DNA from: a virus | Length of the DNA: 40,420 bases | Strand: one strand, 5' to 3' | Virus record (IMG/VR): IMGVR_UViG_3300025646_000112 | Location: 1-40,420 of that record | Part shown: piece by piece, positions 2,646-16,842 of the stretch | Numbering within the stretch: position 1 is the first letter of the stretch | How the letters are laid out: each line of letters opens with the position of its first letter | Program-made: the position numbers and the translations under genes | The notes under the pieces: model-generated | The model's input: the letters and a program-made list of their open reading frames with translations, nothing else | The model's database searches: none | Told to the model about the DNA's origin: nothing

Positions 2646-3065
2646 ATGCCAATTACTCATAAAAAAGATGGTTGGTATTGGGGCGGAAGAGGGCCATTTA
2701 AATCTAGAAAAAAAGCAGTTGAAGTTGCACAGGCCGCTTATGCTAGTGGCTATGTAAAGAAATCTTGGAAAAGTATTCTTAAGATTGAAAGTGAAGTTGA
2801 TGGTAGAAAGGTTAGAACTTCGCCCGAAGAATCAATTGACTTTTTGACTTACAGGAGTTGGGCTTGGCAATCTAAAAAAGCGAGAGAATCAGAAGGAATG
2901 ACAGGCGGATTTAAAGACAAAGAACATTTAGAATTGATTACAACTCCAAAAGGAAAAGCACTTGGCTATGATGTTAAAGGCGATGAACTCAAAAGATGGA
3001 TTAGAACTTGGAATGCCGAGTTTGGTGAAAAACTAGGGGCAATATATCCAACAGGTGATGAATGA
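2646..3065 (+). CDS. Small protein with phage-type GWYWGxxGPF domain
   Basis: The 139-residue protein starts with a short domain, about residues 3-36: THKKDGWYWG, GPFKSRKKA and AAYASGY. From memory, this signature recurs in virus and phage structural regions, but its function is unknown to me. It is followed directly by KSWKSILK, an internal copy of the W-x-x-I-L-K peptide that begins several neighbouring proteins. The C-terminal half (about 55-139) is charged, Trp-rich and unrecognised. The start follows GGTGGTT after the previous stop. The stop overlaps the next ATG as ATGA, so translation is probably coupled. It may be a minor head protein. Confidence 0.6.
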   Translation: MPITHKKDGWYWGGRGPFKSRKKAVEVAQAAYASGYVKKSWKSILKIESEVDGRKVRTSPEESIDFLTYRSWAWQSKKARESEGMTGGFKDKEHLELITTPKGKALGYDVKGDELKRWIRTWNAEFGEKLGAIYPTGDE

Positions 3066-3439
3066 TGTGGCAAGAAATTCTTAAGAAAGAAAAGGATGCT
3101 TGCTACTATAAAGTTAAATCAAGATATAAAGACTGGCCTAGTGCTTATGCTAGCGGGGCTTTAGTTCAATGTCGTAAAGTCGGTGCAGATAATTGGGGAA
3201 ATTCGGTTGAAAAAGGCGGAGATGATTTCGCAAGAGAAAAGAAAGAAGGACTTCATGGTTGGTTTTCAAGAGCAGGAGGAAGTGGTTCGGAAACAGGTTG
3301 GGTTTCTTGTCAATCTTGTGAAGATGATAAAGAAGGAACAAAACCTTGTGGAAGAACAGATGCTTCTAAAGGAACTAAACAAAGATGTAGGCCAACTTGT
3401 GCCGCCTGTAAAACATATAAAAGGAGGAAAGGAGAATGA
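3062..3439 (+). CDS. DUF5872-like cysteine-containing protein
   Basis: The protein begins MMWQEILKK, one of the recurring W-x-x-I-L-K tags. It continues with KDWPSAYASGALVQCRKVG, NWGN, KKEGLHGWFSR and a Cys-rich tail (CQSC, CGR, CRPTCAAC). I recognise this series as the phage-associated domain called DUF5872. It occurs widely in marine phage and giant-virus proteins without an assigned function. Several conserved Cys suggest zinc binding, which is inference. Two starts are possible, ATG at 3062 and ATG at 3065. The second has the better spacing from AGGTGAT (3053-3059) and would give MWQEILK, as in the gene at 16315. The gene overlaps both neighbours by 4 bases. Confidence 0.65.
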   Translation: MMWQEILKKEKDACYYKVKSRYKDWPSAYASGALVQCRKVGADNWGNSVEKGGDDFAREKKEGLHGWFSRAGGSGSETGWVSCQSCEDDKEGTKPCGRTDASKGTKQRCRPTCAACKTYKRRKGE

Positions 3440-3855
3440 GCGATTGGAAAGATATACTAAAAGCCCCACTATTAACAGATGAAGAAGAAAAAGAAATTGC
3501 TGATTTGATGCGGTTTAGAAATATGACAAGAGAAGAAGCCGAAAGAAAAGTGAGAAAGGATGCTGGTAAATTAGATTCTAAAACACCAGTAGGTAGATTT
3601 GTTAAAAGTAGTTGCGGAACAGAAAAAATGCATGGCGGTTGTGGTTGCGATGAATGCCGAGAAAAGACTAACAAATCTTATTGTCCTCATTGTGATGGAA
3701 ATGCACCAAAAAGCGAATGCGTTTGTGGAAAAATGGAAAAGAAATTGTTTGGTAATCAAAAGGTAATTGCGGCCAAAGCACCACCAAAGGATGAAATTAC
3801 TGGTGCAGATTTCAAAGCCCTTCGTGGAGAAAAAAAGAAACTAATGAAAGAATAA
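3436..3855 (+). CDS. Hypothetical zinc-binding protein with W-x-x-I-L-K N-terminus
   Basis: The 139-residue protein begins SDWKDILKAP, the recurring tag. A helical segment follows (about 14-50; EEEKEIADLMRFR, TREEAERKV). Then comes a dense cysteine region (about 58-100) with HGGCGCDECR, CPHCDGNAP and CVCG, likely one or two zinc ribbons. The C-terminus is lysine-rich. It has a strong Shine-Dalgarno (GGAGG and GGAG just upstream), and its ATG overlaps the preceding TGA. I do not recognise the family. Its place among tagged proteins between terminase and portal suggests a minor virion or packaging accessory protein. Confidence 0.6.
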   Translation: MSDWKDILKAPLLTDEEEKEIADLMRFRNMTREEAERKVRKDAGKLDSKTPVGRFVKSSCGTEKMHGGCGCDECREKTNKSYCPHCDGNAPKSECVCGKMEKKLFGNQKVIAAKAPPKDEITGADFKALRGEKKKLMKE

Positions 3856-3870
3856 CATTGAGTGATGAAT

Positions 3871-4158
3871 ATGGATTGGAAAGAAGTTCTAAAAAAAGAT
3901 AAAGAAGATATGCGAGTAGGAACAGTATATCCATCCGATAGAGCAGGTAAAAAAATAATGATGCTAACCCATGAAGGTAAGAAAATCCATGCTGGTGCTA
4001 AAGGCTATGGTAATTGGAAAGGTAAAGGAAAGAATCGTGGCGGTGGCACACATCATAATCCAAAACGCAGGGCTAATTTTAAAGCGAGACATAACTGCGA
4101 CCAATGTAAAGGTAGAATTACAACTCCTAGATGTTTAGCCTGTAAAAAACTATGGTGA
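3871..4158 (+). CDS. Small basic zinc-knuckle protein with MDW tag
   Basis: The 95-residue basic protein starts MDWKEVLKKDKED, the clearest copy of the recurring N-terminal tag. A short strand region (KKIMMLTHEGKKIHAGAKGYG) and a Gly/Lys/His-rich stretch follow. The end is RRANFKARHNCDQCK and TPRCLACKKLW, two CxxC pairs that probably bind zinc. The C-terminal RxxFxxRHxC pattern resembles short proteins of phages and large DNA viruses, but I cannot name a family firmly. I chose the ATG at 3871 over GTG 3862 and ATG 3865 because GAGTGAT precedes it and MDW matches other tagged starts. It likely binds nucleic acid. Confidence 0.6.
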   Translation: MDWKEVLKKDKEDMRVGTVYPSDRAGKKIMMLTHEGKKIHAGAKGYGNWKGKGKNRGGGTHHNPKRRANFKARHNCDQCKGRITTPRCLACKKLW

Positions 4159-4212
4159 GAGTAAACAGTTAAAACCCATGCCCACTACAAATGATTTAGG
4201 GGAGTCTTGACT

Positions 4213-5865
4213 ATGGCCGAAGAAAACCGCAGATTCTCCATAACGAATCTATTTAGGAGAAAAACCCCTACTCCTGCTGATAGACAAATTTACAGCATGG
4301 GAATTCAAGAGAGGCAAAACAATAACATAATGACTGCGCCAATTATTTATTCAATTGTTCAGCAATCAGTTATTGTAAGAACTTGTATTACTCAACTTAA
4401 GCAGGAAGTATTTCGTAGAGGCTATCTTTGGGAAAAGGCATACGAAGCCCGTTGTAGAGACTGCGGGAAAGAACATCAACGGCCTGTTCAAGAATGCGCC
4501 CGTTGTGAATCAACTCAATTAGATAAGCCCGACCCAAAGCAATTAGAATACGCTGAGAAGTTTATGGATGGCTATGTGAATAAAGCCGAACAATTGTTTA
4601 TTGATGTGCTACAAGAACTTGAAGATGATTTAAACATCATGGATGATGCATACATTGTTCTCGTCAAAGAATATTTTATTGATGGCAATGGTCAAATTAG
4701 AATGCACCGAATCAAAGAAGTGTTTAGAGGCGACCCCGTTACTATGATGATTTATTGTGATGATGAAGGCATTCGTGGAACAAAGGGATTTACTTGTGTG
4801 AATCACCGTCAATTTATTTCTACTGAACCCCATGAAGTTTGTGAGATTTGTAATGGAAATCTTTTCCCTATTCATTATGTAAATCGTGTCGGTGGCCAAG
4901 ACCAATATTTCTTAGAAGGAGAAGTTCTTCATTTTAGCAAATATAATCCTAGTCGTCTTTACGGTCTTTCTCCAATTCTAACTCTCTATAATCTTGTCAT
5001 GACTCTTATTGCTATGGAGAACTATGTCAATTCATCTTACACAAAGAGTAGAATGCCGAGAGGACTACTCGCAGTCCAAACTAGAAACATGGACTCAATG
5101 AGGAACTTTTGGAGAGCAACAAAAGAAAAGATGGAAGCCGACCCTCATTTTATTCCTGTTATGGGAATTGAAGCCGAGAATGGAAAGGGTGCGGTTGAAT
5201 GGATTAAGTTCATGGATAGCCTCAAAGAAATGGATTATGTTTCTGTAAAGGATGATTTGCGAGATAGAATTTCAGCATTCTATGGAGTAAGTAAAGTGTT
5301 TATGGCTGATAATACTACAAGCGGTGGATTGAATAATGAAGGTATGCAAATCCTAGTAACCAATAGAGCCGTTCAAAAAGCACAAACTGTTTACAACAAT
5401 TATGTTTTCCCGTTCCTCATTAGGCAATTTGGAATTACTGATTGGAATTTGAAACTCCCACCAAGCGAAGAAGAAGATGAAATTGCCATACTTCGTAAGC
5501 GTGAAATTGAAGTTAATATTGCCGCATCAATTAAGAATCTTGGTTTTGAAATTGAAATGGATGAAGATGGTAACTTTACTTATAGTAAGCCCGAACCAAA
5601 AGAAGAGAAGCCTCCAATGGGTGAAGAAGGAAACAATGCAGAACTTGACCCTCTTGCTGGCTCTAATTTAGACCAAAGGGATTTAGATGAAATGCAAAGG
5701 AATTTTGCACAAGGCGGAGAACAACAATCAAAGCCACAAGAGAACCCGCCAGCCACAAGGAATAAAAGGAGAATGAGCGTAGGCCCAGATAAGAGATTAA
5801 CTGGTTTACCCAAAGAAGCAGGAAACCAAAATGTAGATTCAAGAAGCGAAAGGAGAGTTGGATGA
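4213..5865 (+). CDS. Portal protein with two inserted zinc-ribbon-like elements
   Basis: The portal forms the dodecameric ring through which DNA enters the capsid. The 550-residue length fits the family. Typical portal segments are seen: a core with EVLHFSKYNPSRLYGLSPI (about 237-255), a long helix with LIAMENYVNSSY, and a C-terminal FYGVSKVFMADNTTSGGLN region (about 355-375). The tail after residue 465 is hydrophilic. Two insertions stand out. CRDC with CARC (C81, C84, C95, C98) is the first. The second is CVNH with CEIC (C195, H198, C210, C213), about 100 residues later. Both look like zinc ribbons, which are not usual in portals. ATG at 4213 is preferred to TTG 4207 because GGGGAG lies upstream. 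A TTAAAA stretch near 4170 in the 54-base gap could be a weak promoter. Confidence 0.85.
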   Translation: MAEENRRFSITNLFRRKTPTPADRQIYSMGIQERQNNNIMTAPIIYSIVQQSVIVRTCITQLKQEVFRRGYLWEKAYEARCRDCGKEHQRPVQECARCESTQLDKPDPKQLEYAEKFMDGYVNKAEQLFIDVLQELEDDLNIMDDAYIVLVKEYFIDGNGQIRMHRIKEVFRGDPVTMMIYCDDEGIRGTKGFTCVNHRQFISTEPHEVCEICNGNLFPIHYVNRVGGQDQYFLEGEVLHFSKYNPSRLYGLSPILTLYNLVMTLIAMENYVNSSYTKSRMPRGLLAVQTRNMDSMRNFWRATKEKMEADPHFIPVMGIEAENGKGAVEWIKFMDSLKEMDYVSVKDDLRDRISAFYGVSKVFMADNTTSGGLNNEGMQILVTNRAVQKAQTVYNNYVFPFLIRQFGITDWNLKLPPSEEEDEIAILRKREIEVNIAASIKNLGFEIEMDEDGNFTYSKPEPKEEKPPMGEEGNNAELDPLAGSNLDQRDLDEMQRNFAQGGEQQSKPQENPPATRNKRRMSVGPDKRLTGLPKEAGNQNVDSRSERRVG

Positions 5866-6089
5866 TGACAGAAGATACACGACAAAAAGAAATTAGACTA
5901 AAGAAAGAGTTAGCACAACTTCGTGCAAAACATGCGAATGAAGATAGAGTGGTAAAACCAACTAGAGATTTTTCTATGGGAATTCCTGCTGATACTTCAC
6001 ACAAAGCAAAACTAAGTTCGGCAGATTCGCCCGATGTAATTTTACTTCCCAAACACCGAAGAGGCAATAAAGAAAACATTCCATATTGA
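5862..6089 (+). CDS. Small hypothetical charged protein
   Basis: The 75-residue protein has an N-terminal basic helix (KEIRLKKELAQLRAKHA) that could form a coiled coil, then an extended, probably disordered tail. It lacks cysteines and membrane segments. The ATG at 5862 overlaps the portal stop (ATGATGA), and ATG 5865 is equally possible after AAGGAGAG. The tight coupling to the portal suggests a packaging or head role, but no family is recognised. Confidence 0.5.
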   Translation: MMTEDTRQKEIRLKKELAQLRAKHANEDRVVKPTRDFSMGIPADTSHKAKLSSADSPDVILLPKHRRGNKENIPY

Positions 6090-6099
6090 GGTGAAGTAA

Positions 6100-8157
6100 A
6101 TGAATTCTTCAAATGTGCTTAAAGCAAAAGGAGATAAAACCTTTAGCAGTTTTGATGAATTATATGCTTACGAAGCACAAACAGACCCCAATTTGAAAGA
6201 TAACTTTGCATCTAATGAATTAAAACTTGAGGGTCTAAAACAATATACTCTTTCTAACGAAGATAAAAAACAAATAGATAATGCTAGAAAATTCAATAAG
6301 CAAATAGATGAATTAAATGATAGTCTAGGTGTTAAAAGAAAAAAAGGAACTGACTATAAAATTTATTCAACTACGCCATCTTCTAAAAGTTTATTTCCAT
6401 TTATTACAAATTCTTATTTATTTGTTGAGTTTTTAAATTTCCTTAACAGTTGTATGACAATGAGAGCGAATGAGAAAATCGCTAATTACTTTTCATCTGG
6501 TATTTTAAACTACATTAAGATGGCTGAATATGAATCGCCAATTGAAGAAGATAAATATACTCAAGAGGATATAGATAAGGCAAAAGAATTAGAAGAAGAA
6601 TTGTCTATGATTTGTGAAAAAGCACAAAATTTTGCCCTTAAAAAATATTCAAATATTAATGGATTTAAAGCAGTATCTTTGGCCTATGAAAAAATGTATA
6701 ATAAAAAATATCTCACGGCAAAAGATAAGAGATTAAAGGGTTCTGCTATTAAAGATATTATTTATTATTTGAATACTGATTTAACTCCTAAAGAAGAAAT
6801 AACTGGAATAATTACTATTATGAAAAAACATAAAATAGACATAGATAATAGAAATAAAATTCTAGAAGATTTAGACGAAGCCAATAAAAAAGCATTGGAA
6901 GAAGGCAGATTAAAGGGAGAACTAACTCGTAAACTCCAAAGAGAACATAGAAATAAAGAGATGGAGTTAGCAAAAGAAACGGATTCAGTTAAAATAACAG
7001 AATACATGGATTCTCTACCTGAAGGAATTAAAGAAGAAGTTATTGAACAATATAAAGAAATAGTAATACCACAGATTAAATCTCGCATTGAAGCAAAAGA
7101 AAATAAAGATACACCTTTTAATTCCACAGAAAAGAATGAATTAGAAAAAAGACTTGAAAATTACAAAAAAATGCTAGTAGAAACTAAAAATAAATATGAT
7201 TCCTTTATGAAAGAAAGAAATAAAGAATTGAAAACTATTGAAGATAAAATACAGAATGCAAAAAAAGTATTTCAAGAGTGGAGTGAATCAACAGTTGGAA
7301 ATAGAAAACCAAATGAATATAGTCTCAAAGACCAACAATTAGAAAAAAAATTAGCAGAGTTTAGAAAACAAATAGATGAAATTAATCAAAAAAATAAAAA
7401 AGAGAAAGAAAATTTGTTAGACAAAATAAAAATTACTAAAGAACAAATTAGTTCAACAGAAAATGCTTTAAAAGAAAAGGGAGATAGTGAGTCATCAATT
7501 GATGAATTACAACTTTTTTTGGATGAGTATAATTTTAATTATATGCATTTAGATATTTTACATAGGAAATTTATGAATGATTTAGTGGATGAACAATTAC
7601 AAGATTACACAGATGAAATCAATCAAAAATTTAAAGATATTAAAGAAAGTAAAAAGATGGAGTTTAATCGCATTGAGAGAGTCAAAGAACAAATTGATTT
7701 TTTAGTAGATAATGCAGAAGAAATCATACGAATAGCAAATCTAGTTGATTCAATTAATGCTAATAAAGGAGAATTATTTATTGAATCCAAAGAGGATGAA
7801 GAAATAGATAAGAATAAATTTATAAAACAAGTTAAAGAAGCAAAGGATGCCTACATTGAATCTGGAAATCACATTGAAGATATTATAAAATTACTTTCTA
7901 AATTGGAAAAAGAATATGAAGAGGTTTCGGATTTCTTAGAAGAAATAACAGAAGATAGCGAATCCGAAGAAGCAAAAACAGATATTAATGAAATCATAGA
8001 AGATATAGATGAGGAAATAAATGATTCCTTAGTTAATAGAGATAGAATTTTTAGAGAAATAAATAGCAAAACAAAAGACCTCAATGAAGAAATAGAAACA
8101 TTAACTCAGTTGATAACAGAAACAAAAAAGATTGGATTTAAAAAATATAAGGAGTGA
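6100..8157 (+). CDS. Long coiled-coil protein of unknown function
   Basis: The 685-residue protein is dominated by Lys/Glu-rich heptad-like helices from about residue 150 to the end. The N-terminal 130 residues contain a hydrophobic patch (FPFITNSYLFVEFLNFLN). No catalytic motif was found. Codon use is more A-rich than in portal or capsid genes, with runs of AAA, ATA and GAA. The gene starts after GAGGTGAAGTAA and ends just before the Shine-Dalgarno of the next tagged gene. It resembles the second coiled-coil protein at 18160 in length class and composition, but I see no convincing alignment. It could be an internal head or scaffold-like protein or a host-directed protein. Confidence 0.6.
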   Translation: MNSSNVLKAKGDKTFSSFDELYAYEAQTDPNLKDNFASNELKLEGLKQYTLSNEDKKQIDNARKFNKQIDELNDSLGVKRKKGTDYKIYSTTPSSKSLFPFITNSYLFVEFLNFLNSCMTMRANEKIANYFSSGILNYIKMAEYESPIEEDKYTQEDIDKAKELEEELSMICEKAQNFALKKYSNINGFKAVSLAYEKMYNKKYLTAKDKRLKGSAIKDIIYYLNTDLTPKEEITGIITIMKKHKIDIDNRNKILEDLDEANKKALEEGRLKGELTRKLQREHRNKEMELAKETDSVKITEYMDSLPEGIKEEVIEQYKEIVIPQIKSRIEAKENKDTPFNSTEKNELEKRLENYKKMLVETKNKYDSFMKERNKELKTIEDKIQNAKKVFQEWSESTVGNRKPNEYSLKDQQLEKKLAEFRKQIDEINQKNKKEKENLLDKIKITKEQISSTENALKEKGDSESSIDELQLFLDEYNFNYMHLDILHRKFMNDLVDEQLQDYTDEINQKFKDIKESKKMEFNRIERVKEQIDFLVDNAEEIIRIANLVDSINANKGELFIESKEDEEIDKNKFIKQVKEAKDAYIESGNHIEDIIKLLSKLEKEYEEVSDFLEEITEDSESEEAKTDINEIIEDIDEEINDSLVNRDRIFREINSKTKDLNEEIETLTQLITETKKIGFKKYKE

Positions 8158-8164
8158 AATAAAC

Positions 8165-8515
8165 ATGGATTGGATGAAAGTTCTAAAAGAAGAAATTGTT
8201 GAGACTGATGCTGATATTTTATCTTCTCTTGATGATAAACAAAGAAAGCGACTTAAGAAAACACTTCAATCAGCCGAACCGACTGAATTTTTCGGTCAAG
8301 ATTTTACAAAACTCGGAGAACTTATTGAAATTATGAGCGAACTAAATTTAGTTAAAGCCGATAAGAAACTCAACAAGAAGATGAAATCAATGGATGAACG
8401 GAATATTGATATTGTAGCCACCGCTACCAAACTTCGTAAGGAGTATGAATTGTTGTTTAGGCAACTCTATGATATGGTCTATCCTAAGAGAATGGAGGAT
8501 GAAGTAAATGAGTGA
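8165..8515 (+). CDS. Small helical protein with MDW tag
   Basis: The 116-residue protein begins MDWMKVLKEEI, another copy of the recurring N-terminal peptide. The rest is predicted helical and charged (DDKQRKRLKKTL, KLGELIEIMSELNL, KLRKEYELLFRQLYDMVYP). The open frame extends upstream to 8132, but AAGGAGTGA lies 10 bases before the ATG at 8165 and the MDW start matches sister proteins, so I use 8165. It overlaps the next gene by 8 bases. No family is recognised. Confidence 0.55.
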   Translation: MDWMKVLKEEIVETDADILSSLDDKQRKRLKKTLQSAEPTEFFGQDFTKLGELIEIMSELNLVKADKKLNKKMKSMDERNIDIVATATKLRKEYELLFRQLYDMVYPKRMEDEVNE

Positions 8516-8753
8516 AGATAATTCAATTAATGAAGACCTGTTAGCCATCGTTAAGGCATTGGCTGATAAGGTTGAGAGTCTAGAAAAAACAATTTACGCT
8601 AAAGATAGTCTTTTGATGAAGGCTGGCTTAGTCGTTACCCAAAGTCCAACTCCAAGCATGAATAGAACTATTGGTGGTTCTTCTACCATTAGCGGAGATA
8701 TTTCTAAAATGGATTGGAGTGATATTCATAAGATGATTAAGGAGTATGAGTAA
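8508..8753 (+). CDS. Small protein with C-terminal MDWSDIHK peptide
   Basis: The 81-residue protein has an N-terminal coiled coil (LLAIVKALADKVESLEKTIYAK), a Ser/Thr/Gly-rich linker and the C-terminal end SKMDWSDIHKMIKEYE. That end closely matches the last residues of the protease-scaffold protein (ASMDWADVHRLVGGNY). Coiled coil, flexible linker and terminal docking peptide make up the layout of a miniature scaffold or adaptor. The gene has a strong GGAGG at proper spacing. A role in head assembly is inferred from the shared C-terminus and location. Confidence 0.55.
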   Translation: MSEDNSINEDLLAIVKALADKVESLEKTIYAKDSLLMKAGLVVTQSPTPSMNRTIGGSSTISGDISKMDWSDIHKMIKEYE

Positions 8754-8754
8754 A

Positions 8755-8988
8755 ATGCCTGAAAGAGTAACTAAAGAAGAAAGAATGATTAGTCTAGCCA
8801 TTGAAAAGGCTCGCCTAGCAAAAGAAATGCTACAAGAGGAATCTATTCATGAAAGACTTCCTGTTGAAGATGATAGCCAAGAAGTGAAAATCACAAAGCC
8901 AAAGAATCTACGAGCAGAAAAAATTCAAAATCAAACTGCTAAAGATGAAGGCTACGGATTGGCTGGAGAAGTTACAGACAATTCGTGA
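8755..8988 (+). CDS. Small charged hypothetical protein
   Basis: The 77-residue protein (from ATG 8755) has an N-terminal helix (KEERMISLAIEKARLAKEMLQEE) and a polar, probably unstructured C-terminal half. The alternative ATG at 8746 lies almost directly on TAAGGAG, so 8755, ten bases downstream, has the spacing used by neighbours. No motif is recognised. It lies between the MDW-tailed protein and the ligase. Confidence 0.45.
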   Translation: MPERVTKEERMISLAIEKARLAKEMLQEESIHERLPVEDDSQEVKITKPKNLRAEKIQNQTAKDEGYGLAGEVTDNS

Positions 8989-8993
8989 TTTCC

Positions 8994-11501
8994 ATGAAAC
9001 TCTCTAGCATTGAGAAAGATAAGCAACCTTCGGTTGAAATTCTTCGCCTATTTGAAAAGGTTAGAGTCGCCTATCTTTCTGCTAATGAAGACCCAAAAGA
9101 ATATGGTAATCGCTGGAGAAGCGCAGTTAAGTTAATAGAAGAATCATATAATGAATATGATTCTGCTGGAAAAGAAATGAAAAACTTCGTTGAAGAAAAA
9201 GACTTAGAGGATAAGGAAGTAAATAATCCTCAAAGCCAAACTGCTAGAAGAGTATATCAAGGAATAAAGCAACTAAGATATGCTTCGGAATTAGTAGATG
9301 ACCCATTTGCTAGAAGATTTAAAGAAAATGTATTAGAAGAACTCTTAGGAAATCCCGAAAGCATGATTAAATTCGTTCACTATGCTTTGAGAAGTGATTC
9401 TAAATCTTTGCCTAAAGAAGTATGGGCGATAAAAGATATGGGAGAAGACACTTTAACTGATGGACTACAAGGGCTTGATTTGCAGGAAGAAGATATTGCT
9501 CTTTACATCATTGAGCATTATGGTGACGGTAAAGATTCAAAGAAAGTAGAAAAAGAAGTTAAACAGGCTTTAGATATGTTGGAACTTCTTTATTTCTCAA
9601 GATATGATAAAGAAGATTATTCAGCATTAAAAGATATTGAAAAGGCTGAAAAATCAGAAAGTGATTTTATAATTCCAAATAAACCAATGTATCGCATTTT
9701 TGATATTGATGATATTAATGAACTTAAAGGCTTTAGTGGTAATTGGGTCGTTCAAGAAAAATACGATGGTATGAGAGTTCAACTCCATAAGATTGATAAT
9801 AACATCAAAGTCTTTTCTTACAATGAAAAAGATATTACTGATAAGTGTGAAGATATTGTGAAAGAACTTCGTGCAAAGAAGTTCGGAGATTGTATTCTTG
9901 ATGCTGAACTTATTTTATTTGATGGAGATGAAGCCCTACATAGAGCAGATACTATTGCTCATGTTTTCAAAAATAAATATCCCGATGCTAAACTAAGATG
10001 TTCAGTATTTGATATTCTAAGACACGAAGAACAGAATCTAGCAGATGAAGAACTAGAAAAGAGAATTACTATTTTGTTCAATAATTATTCGGGTGACTCT
10101 ACTGATGCTTTGGCTTTCCCATCTAAGAAAGATACTAGAATGGCTGACAACTTAAAAGATATTGAAGAGTATGCTAAAGAGATTATGGAAATGCCTACGG
10201 CAGAAGGAGTTGTCATTAAAGATGCAACCTCTACTTATTATATCGGCACAAAGAAAAATCCAAAGTGGATTAAGTGGAAGAAGTTTGTAGACCTAGATTT
10301 GATTGTCCTTGATAAAAAGGAAACAAAATCCAATTTATTCTCTTATAGTCTAGGGGCAGGGCCAGTAAATGAGGAAAATAAGTTCACTAAAGAAATTGAT
10401 GGAATCCTATACTTAGATGTGGGTAAGGCACTCAATACTTCAATTGAAGTTGATGTAGGTGACATTGTAAGAGTTAAGGTAGATGAAGTAAAACCTAGTG
10501 AGGATAGATTTACTGTTTATTCAGCAAAGGTCATTGAAGTTCCCGAAGTAGAATATCCCGATAAGATTGTTACTTTGGAAATGTTGGCTCAAGATACAAA
10601 GAAGTCGCTTAACTATAATGTAGAAGCACTTGAAAAAGGAATTAGAATTACTGACCATATTCACGGAGAGGCCACCATTATTATGAAAGGTGAATTAGAT
10701 GGTTTTACTATCTATGGCTTTGAACAAAATAATCTAATGTCTAAAAATGCAATTGCTGATTTGAATGTTTGGAAAGAGGCGGCAGTTGAAATCATGAAAA
10801 CTAAAAATAGTGAGATGTTTAATGCTATATTCCAATTCCTTAAAGAAAATGGTGAAAAAGATTTAGCAGACATTGATGAATTCTTAAAGAAACAAATTCC
10901 TTCTTTATACGAAGATACTGTTGGCTCGGATAAAAAAGAACTTGTAAAGTGGCTTAAAGTTAGAAAAGATGATGGGATTCAATTTGTAAATAAAAAATTC
11001 CAAGCCGACCCAACAAAAATTCTTTCGGAAGATGAAGATGAATTGAATGGTGAAATTCTAAAACAATACAAAACTCCCGAAGAATATAGAAAAGGCAACT
11101 TTAAGATTTATGACCGTGAAGATGGTAACTTGAATGTTGTTATGTCTTTAGGCGATGAAAAAATCAATTGGTTTATTGATATTGAAGATAGTGTAGATAT
11201 TTTTGATTTGTTTGGAAAAGCAGGTAAGTTTCCAGCGAGAGTTGCAGATACTATACAAAGAGATAAGGTCATTGATTCGGGAGAAGTGGAATTAGGTATT
11301 CAAAGAAATGGCTATCATGAATATTTCTTAGAAGGAAATAAATTCCAAACTAAGTTTCATGTTAGATACCTTCCCGTTAAAGATAAGAAAATGTGGTTAG
11401 CATGGACTGGATATAAGCAAAAACCTGCCAAAATAGAAGGGGATGAGGGTTTATGGAATATAAGAGAAGATAAATATGCAAATGCCGAAATACCAAAATA
11501 A
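8994..11501 (+). CDS. ATP-dependent DNA ligase with long C-terminal extension
   Basis: The enzyme seals nicks in duplex DNA using ATP. Residues about 1-220 are a helical N-terminal region. The nucleotidyltransferase core begins near residue 235 with motif I EKYDGMRV (predicted adenylated Lys256). It continues with the acidic motif CILDAELILFDG, AEGVVIKD (motif IV) and KWIKWKK (motif V). An OB-fold region follows to about 520. The last 300 residues are extra. They include a beta-rich part with GNFKIYDREDGN and FHVRYLPVKDKKMWLAWTGYK. This vaguely recalls the C-terminal half of LigD-type phosphoesterase domains, but weakly. ATG 8994 is preferred to GTG 8985. The gene sits inside the head operon just before the prohead protease, an unusual place for a replication or repair enzyme. 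Confidence 0.88.
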   Translation: MKLSSIEKDKQPSVEILRLFEKVRVAYLSANEDPKEYGNRWRSAVKLIEESYNEYDSAGKEMKNFVEEKDLEDKEVNNPQSQTARRVYQGIKQLRYASELVDDPFARRFKENVLEELLGNPESMIKFVHYALRSDSKSLPKEVWAIKDMGEDTLTDGLQGLDLQEEDIALYIIEHYGDGKDSKKVEKEVKQALDMLELLYFSRYDKEDYSALKDIEKAEKSESDFIIPNKPMYRIFDIDDINELKGFSGNWVVQEKYDGMRVQLHKIDNNIKVFSYNEKDITDKCEDIVKELRAKKFGDCILDAELILFDGDEALHRADTIAHVFKNKYPDAKLRCSVFDILRHEEQNLADEELEKRITILFNNYSGDSTDALAFPSKKDTRMADNLKDIEEYAKEIMEMPTAEGVVIKDATSTYYIGTKKNPKWIKWKKFVDLDLIVLDKKETKSNLFSYSLGAGPVNEENKFTKEIDGILYLDVGKALNTSIEVDVGDIVRVKVDEVKPSEDRFTVYSAKVIEVPEVEYPDKIVTLEMLAQDTKKSLNYNVEALEKGIRITDHIHGEATIIMKGELDGFTIYGFEQNNLMSKNAIADLNVWKEAAVEIMKTKNSEMFNAIFQFLKENGEKDLADIDEFLKKQIPSLYEDTVGSDKKELVKWLKVRKDDGIQFVNKKFQADPTKILSEDEDELNGEILKQYKTPEEYRKGNFKIYDREDGNLNVVMSLGDEKINWFIDIEDSVDIFDLFGKAGKFPARVADTIQRDKVIDSGEVELGIQRNGYHEYFLEGNKFQTKFHVRYLPVKDKKMWLAWTGYKQKPAKIEGDEGLWNIREDKYANAEIPK

Positions 11502-11510
11502 CCGTGTAAC

Positions 11511-11518
11511 TTAAATAG
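11511..11518 (+). promoter_or_regulatory. TATA-like box before the protease-capsid genes
   Basis: TTAAATAG lies 37 bases before the protease ATG in a 46-base gap, one of few breaks in the operon. An archaeal TATA box there would place transcription start near 11540. The same eight bases occur in the gap at 14670. This is a pattern match only, with no clear BRE. Confidence 0.35.
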
Positions 11519-11547
11519 TAGATTGTTGAACGAGGAGGATGAAAGCC

Positions 11548-12702
11548 ATGACGCTTATGCTAAAGGCTGAGAGAAATGATGAATTTCAAATCCTGAAAAG
11601 CGATGAACTAATGATTGGAGGATATGCGAGTATTGAAATCGTAGACAAACAAAACGATTTGATTACACTAAAAGCACTTAACGAAGCAGTTCAAAAATTT
11701 ATGGAGAAAGATAGATTTAGAAATGTAATGACAAATCACTCAAATGTTCAAGTTGGAGAAGTAGTAAAATCATACAGAGATAAAACGGGGAGGATATGGA
11801 AAACAGAAGTAGACGATGTGGGCTTCTTTGTTGTAATTAAACTCCGTGATGATATTGAAAAAGCAAAAGAAATAAATAGAGGTATTCGCAAAGGGTCGTT
11901 AAGGTCGTTTAGCATAGGAGGACAAGCGTTACAGAAGGTGAAAAAATCTCATCCCGAATTAGGTGAATATAACGAGATTAGTAAACTAGAATTACACGAA
12001 GTAACTATATGCGAAAAAGGAATTAACCCCGAAGCGAAGTTTGACATATTAAAACAAGAAAAAGGAAGTGAAACAATGAGCAAAATGGAAAAAGCATTGG
12101 CAGAACTAGACGCACTTATGGCAGAGGTAAACACTTTGCGTAAGGAAGAAATGAACGAAGAAATGGAAAGCATGGCTATGCCCGAAGAAGAGGAAGAGTC
12201 TATGGGATATTCCGATGAGGAAGCAAAGTCTCTTGTTCCAACAGAAGACGGTGCTGGAGTTGAAATCGGTGAGCCAGCAGACCGTGTTGTGATTGACAAC
12301 GGAAACCCAACAGGTAGCGATATGCCAGTTGTTAAGGCTTTTAACAACGATGAAGTTTCAACTCTTAACCTTACAAATGGAAACATTGAGAAGGCTTACG
12401 AGGCTTTCCGAGCAGAACAACTTGAGAAGTTGGCTTTCTCACAATTGCAGAAGTCTTTTGAGGCTCGCTTTGAAAAAGAACTTTCAAGCCGAGAAGATAT
12501 GCTCGCAAAGCAAAACTATGATGCGGCAACTGAAATTGCTTCTCTTAAAGAAGAATTTAGTGAACTCCGCAAATCTTTGACTGCTGAAAAAGATGCCATT
12601 GTAAAGGCTCAAGAAGCAGTTCGTGCAAACATTCCATCAATGGATGACATTGCCTCAATGGATTGGGCTGATGTTCACCGCTTGGTTGGAGGAAATTATT
12701 GA
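11548..12702 (+). CDS. Prohead protease fused to scaffold (XkdF-like)
   Basis: The protein cleaves and organises the prohead during assembly. Residues 1-170 are an XkdF/S78-like serine protease: GGYASIEIVDKQNDLI (24-39), catalytic His in TNHSNVQVG (H64), the Ser-containing SLRSFSIGG (117-125) and LHEVTICEKGINPEAKF near 150-165. Residues 177-384 are acidic then coiled-coil and act as scaffold, ending in ASMDWADVHRLVGGNY. The ATG at 11548 follows GAGGAGG by nine bases. The ATG at 11539 directly abuts that box and is unlikely. Codon use changes within the gene, from AGA/ATA-rich in the protease half to CGC/CTC/AAG/TTC-richer in the scaffold half, matching the adjacent capsid gene. Confidence 0.82.
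   Translation: MTLMLKAERNDEFQILKSDELMIGGYASIEIVDKQNDLITLKALNEAVQKFMEKDRFRNVMTNHSNVQVGEVVKSYRDKTGRIWKTEVDDVGFFVVIKLRDDIEKAKEINRGIRKGSLRSFSIGGQALQKVKKSHPELGEYNEISKLELHEVTICEKGINPEAKFDILKQEKGSETMSKMEKALAELDALMAEVNTLRKEEMNEEMESMAMPEEEEESMGYSDEEAKSLVPTEDGAGVEIGEPADRVVIDNGNPTGSDMPVVKAFNNDEVSTLNLTNGNIEKAYEAFRAEQLEKLAFSQLQKSFEARFEKELSSREDMLAKQNYDAATEIASLKEEFSELRKSLTAEKDAIVKAQEAVRANIPSMDDIASMDWADVHRLVGGNY
12076..12702 (+). CDS. Nested in-frame scaffold protein (internal start)
   Basis: An ATG at 12076 lies in frame inside the protease gene and is preceded by AAGGAAGTGA at ribosome-binding distance. It would make a 208-residue scaffold (MSKMEKALAELDALM...) without the protease. The position coincides with the end of the protease domain and with the shift to capsid-like codon use. 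Bacteriophage lambda uses the same arrangement (C and Nu3). The product would carry the C-terminal MDWADVHR peptide, placing that peptide in an abundant assembly protein. The site is seen; its use is inferred. Confidence 0.5.
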   Translation: MSKMEKALAELDALMAEVNTLRKEEMNEEMESMAMPEEEEESMGYSDEEAKSLVPTEDGAGVEIGEPADRVVIDNGNPTGSDMPVVKAFNNDEVSTLNLTNGNIEKAYEAFRAEQLEKLAFSQLQKSFEARFEKELSSREDMLAKQNYDAATEIASLKEEFSELRKSLTAEKDAIVKAQEAVRANIPSMDDIASMDWADVHRLVGGNY

Positions 12703-12711
12703 GGTGATATT

Positions 12712-14013
12712 ATGGGATACATTAACACAATTGCAGATTTAGAAGCACAAAGTTACGGACTGAACATGGCAGGATATGCTGGAAACGATTTGTTGAAAGC
12801 GGCTGGCGGACTAAGTGGGCTACATACTCCCCACGATGGAGCGCAAACCGCACCAACAGGTTATTTGGCTAACCTTTACAATCAAGTTTATGGCCAAAAA
12901 GTTTGGTCAATGTTGAACCGAGAATGCAACGCACTTTCAGTTATCTCAAAGCGACCATACACTTCAAGCGGTTGGAGAGTTCTAAGTGAGCGACCTGCTG
13001 GTGGTTCAAGCGCACAACTTTCAGTTGGAACATCGGGTGCTATTGGTGCTTCCGCAACTTCGGCTGATTTGATTGGTGGTGTGCCAGAAAATCAAAGCAT
13101 TGGTAGCGGTGGTCTTCAAGCCATTGCACCAACATATGCTCAACTATACCTTTCTCCAAAGACTGTTGCTCATCAATTTGAGTTCAGCGAAATTGCTTTG
13201 GAAATGGCAAAAATTGATGATGGTATTGGTGACATTAGAGCGCAAATGAGAGAAGACATGGGTAAGCATCACGCTGAAATGCAAAACAAGATGTTGGTTA
13301 TGCCTTTGGAATTCTACGGTGAACCTACCGCTTTGTCTACTCTAGAAGATAACTACACTTCACTTTACAAAGTTGTTACTTCCACCGCAGAAATTGACAT
13401 TGCTGATACAGACAACCTTTACTCCGAAGCACAAGGCGATTTGATTAACAACATTTACGGCTCAAACAGAACAAGTGCTTCTTTCCTTGATGCTACTGTT
13501 GATTACGGTGACGGATATGTTGCGGCAGATGTGCGAAGTCTTACACTTACTCGTCTTAACGCAATGATTCGTGATTTGAGAATTGAAGGCGGTTCACCAA
13601 AGGTTATTTTGACTGGTTACGATACTATTCAAGCATTGGCTGACCTTCTTCAAGCACAAGAGCGATTTATGGATAGAAAAGAAATTGTTCCAACTGTGAA
13701 CGGTGTTCGTGGTGTAAAGGGTCAAGAAGTTGGATTCCGTGTTTCAACTTACTACGATATTCCTTTGATTCCAGTCAAAGACATGGCTTCAACCACACAT
13801 TCATCTGTTACTGGTATTTCCGATATGTTGTTCCTTGATACTGACCATTTGTGGCTTTCAGTCATGAAGCCAACTCAATATCTTGAGGATGGTATTACCA
13901 ACGGAAACCCATTCGGTGTTGGTCGTCTAGGTAATACTGGACTTTACCGAACCATTGGTGAAGTCGGTTGTTCATTCTTTAAGGGTCAAGGCAAGATTAC
14001 GAACCTTCAATGA
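12712..14013 (+). CDS. HK97-fold major capsid protein
   Basis: The main shell subunit, 433 residues. It follows the protease-scaffold gene by 9 bases, with GAGGTGAT before the ATG. The N-terminal 100 residues (YAGNDLLKAAGG, YLANLYNQVYGQKVW) are followed by a Gly/Ser-rich region and a long spine-helix-like segment (AQMREDMGKHHAEMQNKM, about 178-195). Further on are A-domain-like parts with SPKVILTGYDTIQALADLL and FRVSTYYDIPLIPVKDM, and the C-terminal LGNTGLYRTIGEVGCSFFKG. These are typical of HK97-like coat proteins. Codon use is the most C-ending in the window (AAC, TAC, TTC), as expected for the most highly expressed gene. Confidence 0.88.
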   Translation: MGYINTIADLEAQSYGLNMAGYAGNDLLKAAGGLSGLHTPHDGAQTAPTGYLANLYNQVYGQKVWSMLNRECNALSVISKRPYTSSGWRVLSERPAGGSSAQLSVGTSGAIGASATSADLIGGVPENQSIGSGGLQAIAPTYAQLYLSPKTVAHQFEFSEIALEMAKIDDGIGDIRAQMREDMGKHHAEMQNKMLVMPLEFYGEPTALSTLEDNYTSLYKVVTSTAEIDIADTDNLYSEAQGDLINNIYGSNRTSASFLDATVDYGDGYVAADVRSLTLTRLNAMIRDLRIEGGSPKVILTGYDTIQALADLLQAQERFMDRKEIVPTVNGVRGVKGQEVGFRVSTYYDIPLIPVKDMASTTHSSVTGISDMLFLDTDHLWLSVMKPTQYLEDGITNGNPFGVGRLGNTGLYRTIGEVGCSFFKGQGKITNLQ

Positions 14014-14023
14014 GGTGATTTAA

Positions 14024-14290
14024 GTGGCTTTTTCATATACAGTTACTTCAAACACCGTGTTTGGTAATAAGCGAATTGTCTTTGGAAGTTTCACCAATGG
14101 CGTAAGTGATACTGGCGGAGAAGTTGCTACTGGTCTAAAAACAGTAGATTTCTTCATTCCTATCGGTAGTAGCCTACCTCTAACGGCTCAAATCAATGAA
14201 ACTTTCCCTCTTTCTAGCGGGAATGTTACGATTGTTACTGACCCTGATTTAGACGGATATTGGATGGCTATTGGCGACGGTTTGGTTTGA
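14024..14290 (+). CDS. Probable head decoration or minor head protein
   Basis: The 88-residue beta-rich protein starts with GTG after GAGGTGATTTAA. Visible patterns are SNTVFGNKRIVFGSF, VATGLKTVDFF and a final DPDLDGYWMAIGDGLV. Similar small proteins follow capsid genes in many phages. It may be a decoration protein, judged from position and beta character only. It shares the capsid-like codon use of its neighbour. Confidence 0.5.
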   Translation: MAFSYTVTSNTVFGNKRIVFGSFTNGVSDTGGEVATGLKTVDFFIPIGSSLPLTAQINETFPLSSGNVTIVTDPDLDGYWMAIGDGLV

Positions 14291-14299
14291 GGGATTTTT

Positions 14300-14641
14300 T
14301 TGGCTTACATGGAAATCTCTGAATCATCACCATTAAGAAGATTCAAGTGCAATATTCGCTTTACAGAAGTTTCTGTGGTGAAGGGGGAAAGAGTAGAAGT
14401 TCCTAATGATTGGGCTATTTCTGCTTTGAGTCATAACGACCTTCTTTTCTCCTTCACCGCAGAAGATGAAGCATTCTTCAAGGGATTGAACGAGGCTCGC
14501 ATTGCTTTAATTAACAGACAAGTGGAAGAAGAAATTCTTTCCCCAAAGGATGCGATTGCTTTATTCATTCCAAAGAAGTCTAAGCCAATTTCTGTTCCTA
14601 AAGCAACACCTGCTAAGAAGTCTAAGGCAAAGAAAGAGTAA
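14300..14641 (+). CDS. Small head-region protein with lysine-rich tail
   Basis: The 113-residue protein starts with TTG at 14300, nine bases after GAGGGA; an ATG at 14309 is the alternative. Residues 1-80 are a small mixed alpha/beta domain (KCNIRFTEVSVVKGERVEVPNDW, LNEARIALINRQVEEE). The end is a basic tail, PKATPAKKSKAKKE, that could contact DNA. It lies within the capsid cluster. A head-completion or decoration role is possible, but the family is not recognised. Confidence 0.5.
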   Translation: MAYMEISESSPLRRFKCNIRFTEVSVVKGERVEVPNDWAISALSHNDLLFSFTAEDEAFFKGLNEARIALINRQVEEEILSPKDAIALFIPKKSKPISVPKATPAKKSKAKKE

Positions 14642-14669
14642 TCTTTCAGCCATAGATTTTGGAATTGAA

Positions 14670-14677
14670 TTAAATAG
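14670..14677 (+). promoter_or_regulatory. TATA-like box in 71-base gap
   Basis: TTAAATAG occurs 43 bases before the ATG at 14713, matching the element at 11511. It could start a transcript for the accessory block. Support is limited to the repeated element and its position in the gap. Confidence 0.33.
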
Positions 14678-14712
14678 GTGAACACATAAGGACATAAACA
14701 GGGGAACTTAGT

Positions 14713-15006
14713 ATGGGGTTTGCTGGTGGTTGTAGAACAAGTGGAGTATTGACTGCGAGTGCAGTTGTCACAAAGGGTAGAGCATTATTGGTTAGTGTTC
14801 ATGCTTGTGAAGTTGGCGGAACTACACCCGTTACAATTAAAATCTACGATGGCACTTCATCAAGTGGAAAAGAAATTGCTAGGCTAAATATTGCCGCAGG
14901 TCAAACAATTGAGTTTGATATGCATGGTGTTATTTGCGACAATGGAATTTACTTTGAAGAAGTTGCGGCAGGTGGAGATTCAGCAGTCTCTATTGAGTTT
15001 GCTTGA
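14713..15006 (+). CDS. Small beta-rich structural protein
   Basis: The 97-residue protein is almost wholly beta-strand-like: KGRALLVSVHACEVGG, TTPVTIKIYDGTSSSGKEIARLNI, GQTIEFDMHGVICDNGIYFEE, ending in VSIEFA. This jelly-roll-like pattern is common in small uncharacterised phage proteins near capsid or tail genes. AGGGGAAC precedes the ATG. It may be a decoration protein; no precise family is assigned. Confidence 0.5.
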   Translation: MGFAGGCRTSGVLTASAVVTKGRALLVSVHACEVGGTTPVTIKIYDGTSSSGKEIARLNIAAGQTIEFDMHGVICDNGIYFEEVAAGGDSAVSIEFA

Positions 15007-15015
15007 GGCGTTATT

Positions 15016-15420
15016 ATGGCGGCATTGAATCACGATACTAGACTAGTTATGACTATTCTTTTTGTTGGAACACTTAGCGGAGCGAATGTATTCTTTTATG
15101 CTCAATACGGAACAGGATTTCCTTATGGGCCGATGACGCATTCTGTTCTCTTTGGGCTAGGAACAATTGGTTCTATTATGGTCATGAAAGCCGTCTTTGA
15201 TTTGGCTCTCAATGATAAAATTGAACTATGGCTTCTTGATAGAAAGATTTCAGCATATTGGGCTAGAAAGGCTAGAGATGCTGAACAGCGAACTAAATTA
15301 GTAGAAAGCGCAAAGCAATACTCTAACAACTTCGGTTCTTCTCCATTCCAACAACCTCAAATGCTAAGTCAAGAAGATTCCAATTCAGTTGGAAATGAAT
15401 TTTTGATTGGGCTACAATGA
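15016..15420 (+). CDS. Small two-helix membrane protein
   Basis: The 134-residue protein has two predicted membrane segments, about residues 9-28 (LVMTILFVGTLSGANVFFYA) and 42-64 (SVLFGLGTIGSIMVMKAVF). A basic amphipathic helix (YWARKARDAEQRTKLVESAKQ) and a Gln/Ser-rich tail follow. Its topology would suit a holin. However, it stands before a second membrane protein and a GTPase, and no lysis enzyme is seen nearby, so a complex at the host membrane is equally possible. GAGG precedes the ATG. Confidence 0.55.
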   Translation: MAALNHDTRLVMTILFVGTLSGANVFFYAQYGTGFPYGPMTHSVLFGLGTIGSIMVMKAVFDLALNDKIELWLLDRKISAYWARKARDAEQRTKLVESAKQYSNNFGSSPFQQPQMLSQEDSNSVGNEFLIGLQ

Positions 15421-15429
15421 GGGTTATGA

Positions 15430-15645
15430 ATGCTAGGCGACATACTAGGTATGACCGATACTGACTTCATGTATAACCAAAGCAGAGCGCATTCTGCTGA
15501 CATTTTCTTTTTGAAAATGAGAGCATGGTTTTGGGGCAGTTGTGCTACATTGTCGGCTTTATTGATTGGTAACATCATGGGAGTATTTGATTTAAATATC
15601 ATGGGTTGGTTGATTGAGTCTGTAAAGTCCTTTTGGGGGCATTAG
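15430..15645 (+). CDS. Small one-helix membrane protein
   Basis: The 71-residue protein has a polar N-terminus (LGDILGMTDTDFMYNQSRAH), one clear membrane segment at about 35-56 (GSCATLSALLIGNIMGVF) and an amphipathic C-terminal helix (GWLIESVKSFWG). It lies 9 bases after the two-helix membrane protein and 1 base before the GTPase gene, so the three are probably cotranslated. No family is recognised. Confidence 0.5.
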   Translation: MLGDILGMTDTDFMYNQSRAHSADIFFLKMRAWFWGSCATLSALLIGNIMGVFDLNIMGWLIESVKSFWGH

Positions 15646-15646
15646 G

Positions 15647-16309
15647 GTGTCGCTACTAACAGGCTTTGCCGTTGTAATAACAGAAGCGGTCTTCTCTGTT
15701 TACAAAAAACTACACGCAATTAACTTCGGAGTCTATGGGGCGACAATGGTTGGCAAAACTACTTTGGCTCATCAACTTACTACGAGAGGAGAAGTTCAAC
15801 AAATAAACGAAAGAACGGTTGGGCTACATAGAGCATCAAGAAAGTCAATAAAAATTGATGGCCAAACAAATACCATTAAGAGTGCTGATTTAGGAGGAGA
15901 AGCAATCTATTGGAAAGAATGGGTTAAAGATATGCAATTAAGAAAGCCAAAATATATTATTTTCATGATAGACCATAGGCACTTAGATAATTCTTCAAAT
16001 CTTGACCATCAAGTAGCATGGAAGTTTCTTGTAGATACTGTTTGCTCATCAATGTGGCCTACTGGAAAGAAAAAGAAAGAAGAAGACTATCCTTTAGCCA
16101 TAGGTATTTGGGCTAATAAATATGATATTTGGGGAAAGAAATATGATAACGATGAGCCTATTGAAAAACATGAAATATTTGAACCGTTTAAGTATGGAAT
16201 GAGGAAGTTGAACGAGAAGGGAATACCCTGTTTCAAATATATTGTTTCAGCAAAATCTGACCCCGAAATGGTGTATAGAGGAATTATTACAATGATAAAG
16301 GATTACTGA
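15647..16309 (+). CDS. Small Ras/Arf-like GTPase with hydrophobic N-terminus
   Basis: The 220-residue protein carries all the diagnostic GTPase elements in order. G1 is GATMVGKT (31-38), a G2 threonine lies near T57, and G3 is DLGG followed by E85 (81-85). G4 is NKYD (157-160) and G5 is SAK (201-203). The strand before G4 (PLAIGIWANKYD) and the IIFMIDHRH strand fit a G-domain. Residues 1-19 form a hydrophobic helix that could anchor it to a membrane. The GTG start at 15647 lies 1 base after the preceding stop. It should bind and hydrolyse GTP and could act as a switch at the membrane with the two membrane proteins upstream. Its virus role is unknown to me. The Glu/Gln position after G3 is Glu, and the loop 138-148 (TGKKKKEED) is an insertion. 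Confidence 0.78.
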   Translation: MSLLTGFAVVITEAVFSVYKKLHAINFGVYGATMVGKTTLAHQLTTRGEVQQINERTVGLHRASRKSIKIDGQTNTIKSADLGGEAIYWKEWVKDMQLRKPKYIIFMIDHRHLDNSSNLDHQVAWKFLVDTVCSSMWPTGKKKKEEDYPLAIGIWANKYDIWGKKYDNDEPIEKHEIFEPFKYGMRKLNEKGIPCFKYIVSAKSDPEMVYRGIITMIKDY

Positions 16310-16314
16310 TTATT

Positions 16315-16842
16315 ATGTGGAAAGATATTCTTAAGGCTCTTGAAAGAATTGCTTTGAGTGATAAGGATAAAATAAAAATAGAAAAAGTTCCACAAGAAGT
16401 TTCATTCAAACCCAATGGACTATGGTATTCATTTAGTTTAGGAAGTGGCTGGATGAGAGGAAATATGTTAGATTATGGCTGGTTAGAATCATATCAATAT
16501 ATGTTATACTTAGATACTTCCGAATTAAACATTTTACAAATTAAAAACTTAGAAGATGCTAATGCTTTTTATAGCAGATGGAATCGTGGAAAACGCAGAA
16601 ACCAATGGGATAGTGTTGCTTTTTACTATGATGGAGTAGAATTATTAAACTATAATAATTGGGTTGAAAAATATGGTAGCGATAATCCTGTTATGGAAGA
16701 ATTTGGTGGATGGGATATGGATTCGGGATGTATTTGGAATACTCAAAATTTAAAAGTTAAAAAAGTCAAACCTATTGAAGAACGCCACTACAAAAGACAA
16801 CATAAAGAACAATTGAGTTTATATGATGATATAGAGGAGTGA
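16315..16842 (+). CDS. Tagged protein with GLWYS/WDxxSGCIW domain
   Basis: The 175-residue protein begins MWKDILKALERIA, a copy of the recurring tag. It continues with a domain carrying FKPNGLWYSFSLGSGW (about 31-46), YMLYLDTSELNILQI (62-76), WDSVAFYYDGVELLNYN (98-114) and GWDMDSGCIWNT (131-142). I recall this series from uncharacterised phage and large-virus proteins, with KPxGLWYS near the start and WDxxSGCIW near the end. The order of strands and conserved Trp/Tyr/Glu would suit an ADP-ribosyltransferase-like fold, but that is a guess from pattern. It lies 5 bases after the GTPase. Confidence 0.55.
   Translation: MWKDILKALERIALSDKDKIKIEKVPQEVSFKPNGLWYSFSLGSGWMRGNMLDYGWLESYQYMLYLDTSELNILQIKNLEDANAFYSRWNRGKRRNQWDSVAFYYDGVELLNYNNWVEKYGSDNPVMEEFGGWDMDSGCIWNTQNLKVKKVKPIEERHYKRQHKEQLSLYDDIEE

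Follow-up and report, generated by a model that had tools for sequence, protein, structure and literature searches.

A short end peptide on diverse proteins of a likely magrovirus: a candidate capsid-loading tag

The internal proteins of phage T4 are described as diverse in their bodies, with only the capsid-targeting sequence (CTS) in common (PMC3012670). The CTS is reported to be an N-terminal signal of 10-20 residues that associates with the prohead core and is removed by gp21 (PMC7411985, PMC5694885), and its use for bringing foreign proteins into heads has been described (PMC10229621). In phage P1, an N-terminal signal longer than 9 but shorter than 30 residues is reported to direct DarB to the head (PMC9024508), and in encapsulins a short cargo-loading peptide is reported to dock within an HK97-fold shell (PMC11202242). 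Here we describe a short tryptophan-containing peptide (the tag) at the ends of otherwise unrelated proteins encoded by a 40,420-base virus contig (IMG/VR record IMGVR_UViG_3300025646_000112; "the window" denotes this whole stretch) and by its relatives. The scaffolding proteins of P22 and of herpesviruses carry a short C-terminal coat-binding helix. In the viruses described here the scaffold likewise ends in a short peptide, whose coat binding is putative, but a related peptide is also present on non-scaffold proteins.

An end peptide on the head-gene strand

The open reading frames (ORFs) of the window contained eight matches to W-x-x-[ILV]-[LH]-[KR], compared with 0.26 expected from composition (44 picked ORFs, 13,280 residues). 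Five of the matches were N-terminal, two C-terminal and one internal. Note that a greedy script, in place of a trained gene finder, chose the ORFs, so that gene totals contain some spurious ones. The pattern was set after the window hits were known and was later applied to the loci of relatives. Each copy listed in the initial annotation of the window was recovered at its position or within a few bases of it. The proteins concerned are the following.

2646..3065, + strand: protein with an internal tag, SWKSILK, with W at residue 41 behind a short N-terminal segment
3062..3439, + strand: N-tagged protein, MMWQEILK, with a DUF5872-like domain (under the Pfam cut-off) also found in cyanophages
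3436..3855, + strand: N-tagged cysteine-rich protein, MSDWKDILK
3862..4158, + strand: N-tagged protein, MMNMDWKEVLK (MDWKEVLK), DUF5754-like (E 1.1e-5, just under the Pfam cut-off)
8132..8515, + strand: N-tagged protein, MDWMKVLK; the tag lies 11 residues into the longest ORF, and translation probably starts at the Met codon at 8165
8508..8753, + strand: 81-residue protein, coiled-coil-like by eye, with the scaffold-type tail KMDWSDIHKMIKEYE at its C-terminus
11539..12702, + strand: S78 prohead protease whose scaffold-like C-terminal part ends in SMDWADVHRLVGGNY
16315..16842, + strand: N-tagged protein, MWKDILK, with a phrog_8582-like body

Both C-terminal copies (8508-8753 and 11539-12702) have Trp at residue 12 counted from the C-terminus.

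The relatives' loci (group A) were 80 of 495 in IMG/VR. Three of these carry a major capsid protein (MCP) identical to that of the window, and the other 77, some of which are near-identical to each other, have MCPs of 67-72% identity. In this partly redundant sample (1,386 ORFs), the pattern matched 215 times compared with 9.0 expected, and 211 of the 215 matches lay no more than 20 residues from the N-terminus or 25 from the C-terminus. Thus, the peptide is retained at protein ends in related genomes, and the phenomenon is larger than the "at least seven" tagged proteins first noted. The initial annotation had named absence of the tag from orthologues as a refuting result, and this is not what the relatives show.

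We consider the window virus most likely a magrovirus because of its MCP relatives (haloviruses and IMG/VR loci) and its gene content, in a comparison with haloviruses and relatives' MCPs. Its best named MCP relatives were the haloviruses HVTV-1, HCTV-5 and HCTV-1 (24.6-25.8% identity over 88-94% of the query), which relates the window virus to the Druskaviridae, where HVTV-1 is classed; none of the 11 phage-collection matches of the MCP was a magrovirus record. Magroviruses (order Magrovirales) are viruses of Marine Group II archaea that have 90-110 kb genomes in which the modules for morphogenesis and replication occupy opposite strands (PMC12999244). The relatives' contigs span 78-97 kb, compared with the 90-110 kb of the definition, and have near-equal ORF numbers on the two strands. 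The hosts of this tag-bearing marine virus group are probably archaea.

Strand distribution was analyzed in 11 of 15 long contigs (78-97 kb; 706 ORFs on the MCP strand and 702 on the other), with the other strand serving as internal control and as proxy for replication genes. The strict tag, W..[ILV]L[KR] within the first 30-32 residues, was present in 120 of 706 MCP-strand ORFs versus 2 of 702 other-strand ORFs (122 and 2 if the motif may start anywhere up to residue 30). The relaxed tag in the first 30 residues was present in 164 and 3, respectively (Fisher p ~3e-49). When the residues of protein starts were shuffled 200 times, the MCP strand yielded a mean of 0.87 strict tags (maximum 4) and 2.8 relaxed tags (maximum 8), and the other strand 2.4 relaxed tags. 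Trp itself was commoner on the other strand (2,182 versus 1,670), and both strict hits there belonged to one family, GRWDK[VI]LK, with no Met shortly before the motif. The initial annotation had proposed that the tagged proteins are packaged in the head, and had named equal frequency in non-structural proteins as a result that would speak against it; with strand as proxy, frequencies were far from equal.

Each contig carried 5-22 relaxed tags on the MCP strand, and the minimum of 5 was that of the contig carrying the MCP of the window; this contig begins 15 kb before the MCP. Along the MCP strand, ORFs lying >3 kb upstream of the MCP bore relaxed tags in 156 of 422 cases, compared with 7 of 112 for ORFs close to the MCP and 1 of 172 for those on the tail side. 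Further, ten MCP-strand proteins and no other-strand protein had W..[ILV]L[KR] among their 16 C-terminal residues, and internal copies were found in six and one, respectively.

Blast clustering divided the bodies of the 122 proteins with a strict tag (MCP strand, 120; other strand, 2) into 80 families, 61 of them singletons, in agreement with the earlier claim of a common terminal peptide on unrelated bodies. Alignment of the 120 proteins gave the consensus MxWxxILK, followed by a lone E further on. The tag Trp lay at residues 2 to 29 of N-tagged proteins. At the Leu position all six codons were in use (CTA, CTT, TTG, TTA, CTC and CTG), as were all three codons of Ile and both of Lys. The use of six Leu and three Ile codons indicates that the tag is not a DNA element; it is selected at the protein level.

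The scaffold tail and probable capsid loading

A scaffold ORF lay beside the MCP at 39 of 40 loci checked among the 80, and all 39 scaffolds ended in [ML]-[DENS]-W-x-[DEQ]-[IV]-H-[KR], with Trp 11 or 12 residues from the end. In the 11 long contigs, the tail was present on 11 of 11 scaffolds, and in 10 of 11 on a second protein of ~80 residues. The initial annotation had treated the end peptides as one. Cargo and scaffold do have related ends, but these are of two types with L versus H at the fifth position: the cargo tag, [Met/STND]-W-x-[DNE]-[IV]-[LI]-K, which is also found at the C-terminus of or inside some proteins, and the scaffold-type tail, [DENS]-W-[SNKA]-[DE]-[IV]-H-[KR]. Tag and tail have equal spacing and similar preferences at -1, +2, +3 and +5.

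Among the N-tags with a non-initiator residue before Trp (n=69), S, T, N or D stood at -1 in 42 (background 0.22) and D, E or N at +2 in 38 (background 0.21). Judged from the residues, these preferences would fit a capped helix beginning at Trp. AlphaFold modeling of the MCP with the tail gave a predicted template modeling score (pTM) of 0.19 with a 54-row alignment, and of 0.69, with the MCP folded, with 75 more diverse rows. The MCP predicted in this second model matched coats of the HK97 type, its best matches including phage coats and encapsulins. In the same model, the scaffold tail was predicted as a helix from the motif Trp (confidence 58-74).

In a distant tagged group, the tail reads MSWDEIH, MSWDEAH, MSWAEAH or MSWDEIN, and cargo retains W-x-x-[IV]-L-K. 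Because the tail drifts while the tag is constant, the two need not share one site, and the distant clades argue against a strictly identical dock. Further, scaffold tails containing W were found at some tagless outgroup loci (L164, L169-L172 and L174), and therefore the scaffold tail may be older than the cargo tag. Two candidate docking partners are encoded in the window.

4207..5865, + strand: portal protein, without a tag; alternative candidate
12712..14013, + strand: MCP, with an HK97 fold by prediction; candidate

The tag is conserved at the protein level, is restricted to the MCP strand near the head module and has a related counterpart on the scaffold tail; this much is established. 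Head-adjacent genes, diverse bodies and one end peptide, as in T4, favor head loading, and we regard the tag as probably a capsid-loading peptide that acts like the T4 CTS (rough probability 0.66). We infer late expression, binding, enclosure and ejection of the tagged proteins. A large, fast-changing set of mostly small tagged proteins would be made late in infection. Their tag would form a short helix, [STND or Met]-W-x-[DNE]-[IV]-[LI]-K, usually N-terminal but sometimes C-terminal or internal, and would bind a prohead component. This component would most likely be the inner face of the MCP, where the C-terminal helix of the scaffold, [DENS]-W-S-D-I-H-K, would also bind, or else the scaffold core itself. 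The tagged proteins would then be enclosed in the prohead and, by analogy with T4, later delivered with the DNA into the host.

The T4 precedent named in the initial annotation is apt. In T4, as described, a short N-terminal peptide is the sole conserved part of diverse packaged proteins (IPI, IPII, IPIII and Alt; PMC3012670, PMC7411985), and the tag is likewise a short N-terminal peptide shared by diverse proteins (80 families; 164 of 706 versus 3 of 702 ORFs). Further, T4 is a tailed virus with a prohead protease (PMC7411985), and the window encodes an S78 protease. In contrast to T4, for which the account consulted names three internal proteins and Alt (PMC7411985), the contigs here have 5-22 tagged MCP-strand genes each; here the tag also occurs at C-termini or internally, a related peptide is present on the scaffold, and packaging and cleavage are putative. 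The P1 signal is similar in its position and its direction of a protein to the head, but no consensus is reported to have been found among the Dar proteins (PMC9024508), whereas here one consensus extends over dozens of families. Encapsulin cargo peptides are similar in that they are short and dock within an HK97-fold shell, and encapsulins are among the fold matches of the MCP of the window; unlike encapsulins, this is a virus head with a scaffold, the tag is mostly N-terminal and its binding is putative. The tag sequence appears to differ from that of the T4 CTS.

Several observations weigh against capsid loading. All 122 N-tags had L at the fifth position, where the pattern also permitted H, and all 39 scaffold tails had H. 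Covariation of tail and tag across clades, sought as a sign of a common dock, was not found, and AlphaFold gave no readable docking of the tail, the confidence of which was 58-74. There was no strong preference at residues +6 to +12 after the tag Trp (N-tags of the 11 contigs), and therefore no cleavage site was visible. The tagged bodies reveal almost no function, homologous bodies from other phages are without the tag, and the excess of positive charge is weak relative to untagged upstream genes (p 0.04). No virion proteome was found for these viruses, and magroviruses are known from metagenomes only, with no isolate (PMC12999244).

A more specific form of capsid loading, which we put forward tentatively and regard as somewhat doubtful, is that the cargo label is a mini-helix that mimics the capsid-binding tail of the scaffold, so that cargo takes docks otherwise used by the scaffold. 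If this were true, the inner virion proteome would be readable from metagenomes, and dozens of candidate archaeal takeover or counter-defence proteins would be named. A tag recognizable by sequence would yield, for uncultured viruses, a list of inner-head proteins open to testing, and would serve as a rule for spotting proteins delivered into marine archaea. It would be an archaeal counterpart of the T4 protein-packaging signal and could be used for loading proteins into heads.

The alternative that survives best, although we consider it unlikely, is that tag and tail are unrelated look-alikes: the tail binds the capsid protein, and the N-tag docks without packaging to another viral or host partner, such as the portal, the terminase, the 81-residue protein or a host protein. 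The clean split of the two classes by L and H, the lack of tag-tail covariation in distant clades, and the outgroup loci with W-tails on the scaffold and without N-tags agree with this explanation. However, it leaves unexplained the equal spacing and the similar preferences at four positions, and the rarity of tagged genes on the tail side and the other strand. An improbable alternative is that the prohead protease docks on the tag, which would mark proteins for maturation cleavage. A protease domain and a scaffold-type tail do occur in the same ORF, and removal of T4 CTS peptides by gp21 is reported (PMC7411985), but no strongly preferred residue follows the tag at +6 to +12, and tags are also found at extreme C-termini, where cleavage would achieve little. 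Still less probable is a host-cell localisation or stability signal (membrane, degron or host hub) for late accessory proteins, as the scaffold and the 81-residue protein bear a related peptide and the consensus behind the tag has no common hydrophobic anchor. Finally, a DNA- or translation-level constraint on gene starts (an initiation element or a repeated cassette) that incidentally encodes the peptide would suit the majority of copies, which are located at gene starts, but is the least probable alternative, codon diversity being strongly against it and the variable position of W and the C-terminal and internal copies telling against it too.

Bodies of the tagged proteins

In a Pfam search at E 0.001, the 120 tagged proteins matched DUF6943 (3), DUF5754 (2) and PAP2 (1). 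They matched 11 PHROGs families, the sole named one being phrog_220 (minor head protein and DNA pilot; 1 member), and looser Pfam and NCBIfam searches gave chiefly weak single matches. Homologues across the 80 families comprised 182 with the strict motif and 122 without it, 63 of the latter belonging to the family of the gene at 8132. Several of the listed homologues without the strict motif have variants such as IIK, IVK, ILQ or ILH (e.g., MSWEDIIK, MTWQDILQ and MNWFDIVK), and others are truncated at a contig end or have no tag. The majority of the 8132-8515 homologues lack the strict motif; the six listed start with MT(T)WDYYGxGExxxLK, in which an insertion separates the tag Trp from [IV]LK. 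The body of the 16315-16842 protein matched 38 Mycobacterium phage records, and these homologues appear to be without the tag because all alignments among the matches listed begin at residue 27.

The median net charge per 100 residues was +2.0 for tagged proteins versus +0.6 for untagged upstream genes. The difference gave p 0.04 relative to the 292 upstream genes without a tag and 1e-7 relative to genes of the other strand, in tests for which contig ends were unwrapped slightly differently from the medians. The positive charge might, as a weak indication, suit packing with DNA.

The DUF5872-like domain (3062-3439) matched 370 phage records, mostly of marine cyanophages and usually over some 40 residues; 302 of the 370 were at 60-80% identity and 59 at 80-95%. 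The idea that other phages carry the same cargo with another tag was not borne out in RN05-S, P-SSM2 and CRP-902, where the DUF5872-like proteins are without the end peptides of their neighbours, and it remains a hint. In cyanophages RN05-S (L137 5956-6273) and P-SSM2 (L141 19764-20530), ORFs near structural genes start with MKSFQDFLQES, MRTFQEFLQ or MKSFKQFLEEA; such starts presumably resemble the T4 CTS. In Roseobacter phage CRP-902 (OQ401624; L139 37155-42406), four proteins whose genes lie between those of the portal and the MCP all start with MANP[VI]K, which may be an unrelated phage tag of like kind; one of the four has a nuclease annotation. In the head region of HVTV-1 (L138 4623-9018), gp115 and gp116 have the common segment VY[IV].SP.EAPE...V..G..GG. 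Tandem paralogues at three loci (L090 15523-17739, L106 496-3286 and L114 5363-8489) carry the tag followed by a second short motif, of the IDIQKPFKRVKEDDC or LDFNQP..EEEDDC type.

Distribution of the tag

The strict N-tag was found in 84 of 1,386 ORFs in 48 loci of the window-like group A, and in 71 of 596 ORFs in 25 loci of group B (40 loci among the matches listed), whose MCPs are mostly ~50% identical to that of the window, with a few at 65-70%. The tag is present in these two magrovirus-like groups. Group B and, apart from two methanogen viruses, the outgroups came from 80 further loci among the matches listed for an HVTV-1-led alignment. Among the matches listed, the strict N-tag occurred in 0 of 377 ORFs of haloviruses (20 loci), 0 of 166 of a marine set with MAGMSFEEY-type coats (15 loci) and 0 of 97 at five other loci, and it occurred in 0 of 72 ORFs of two methanogen viruses. 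Together this amounts to 0 of 712 ORFs, and likewise 0 for the relaxed form. A simple de novo count for a tag of other sequence in these tagless outgroups found nothing comparable to the W..I.K of groups A and B. A scan of genome contigs yielded three contigs of metagenome-assembled genomes, which had the strict N-tag in 2 of 55 ORFs. Labelled Maricaulis and Altibacter (L224, L225 and L226) and carrying a magrovirus-like MCP, they are probably misbinned viral contigs.

Searched at the DNA level, the pattern M-[S, T and others]-W-K-D-I-[L/F]-K matched 108 stretches in 2.9 million viral contigs, part of them on contigs already within the comparison set. A gene similar to one from this virus group (E 1e-8, <95% identity) was present in 95 of the 108, and at least two N-tags in 84. 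Thus, the tag is nearly a hallmark of the group. Of the 13 stretches without a similar gene, the ORF picker gave at least two N-tags in 4, one in 2 and none in 7. Among the first 80 stretches, the peptide ended in IFK in two, and of the 88 frames matched, 4 had fewer than 40 residues. We found no earlier description of the tag in the literature on magroviruses, Poseidoniales viruses, capsid targeting, scaffold cargo and archaeal internal proteins, where a prior mention is possible; the words scaffold, motif and N-terminal are absent from one magrovirus paper (PMC10160649).

The window also encodes the following morphogenesis genes.

18-1280, + strand: terminase
22211-24169, + strand: tube-like tail gene
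24923-26419, + strand: tape-measure-like tail gene

Further, an ATP-dependent DNA ligase gene (window 8985-11501) lies within the head module, between the small genes that follow the 81-residue protein and the protease-scaffold gene.

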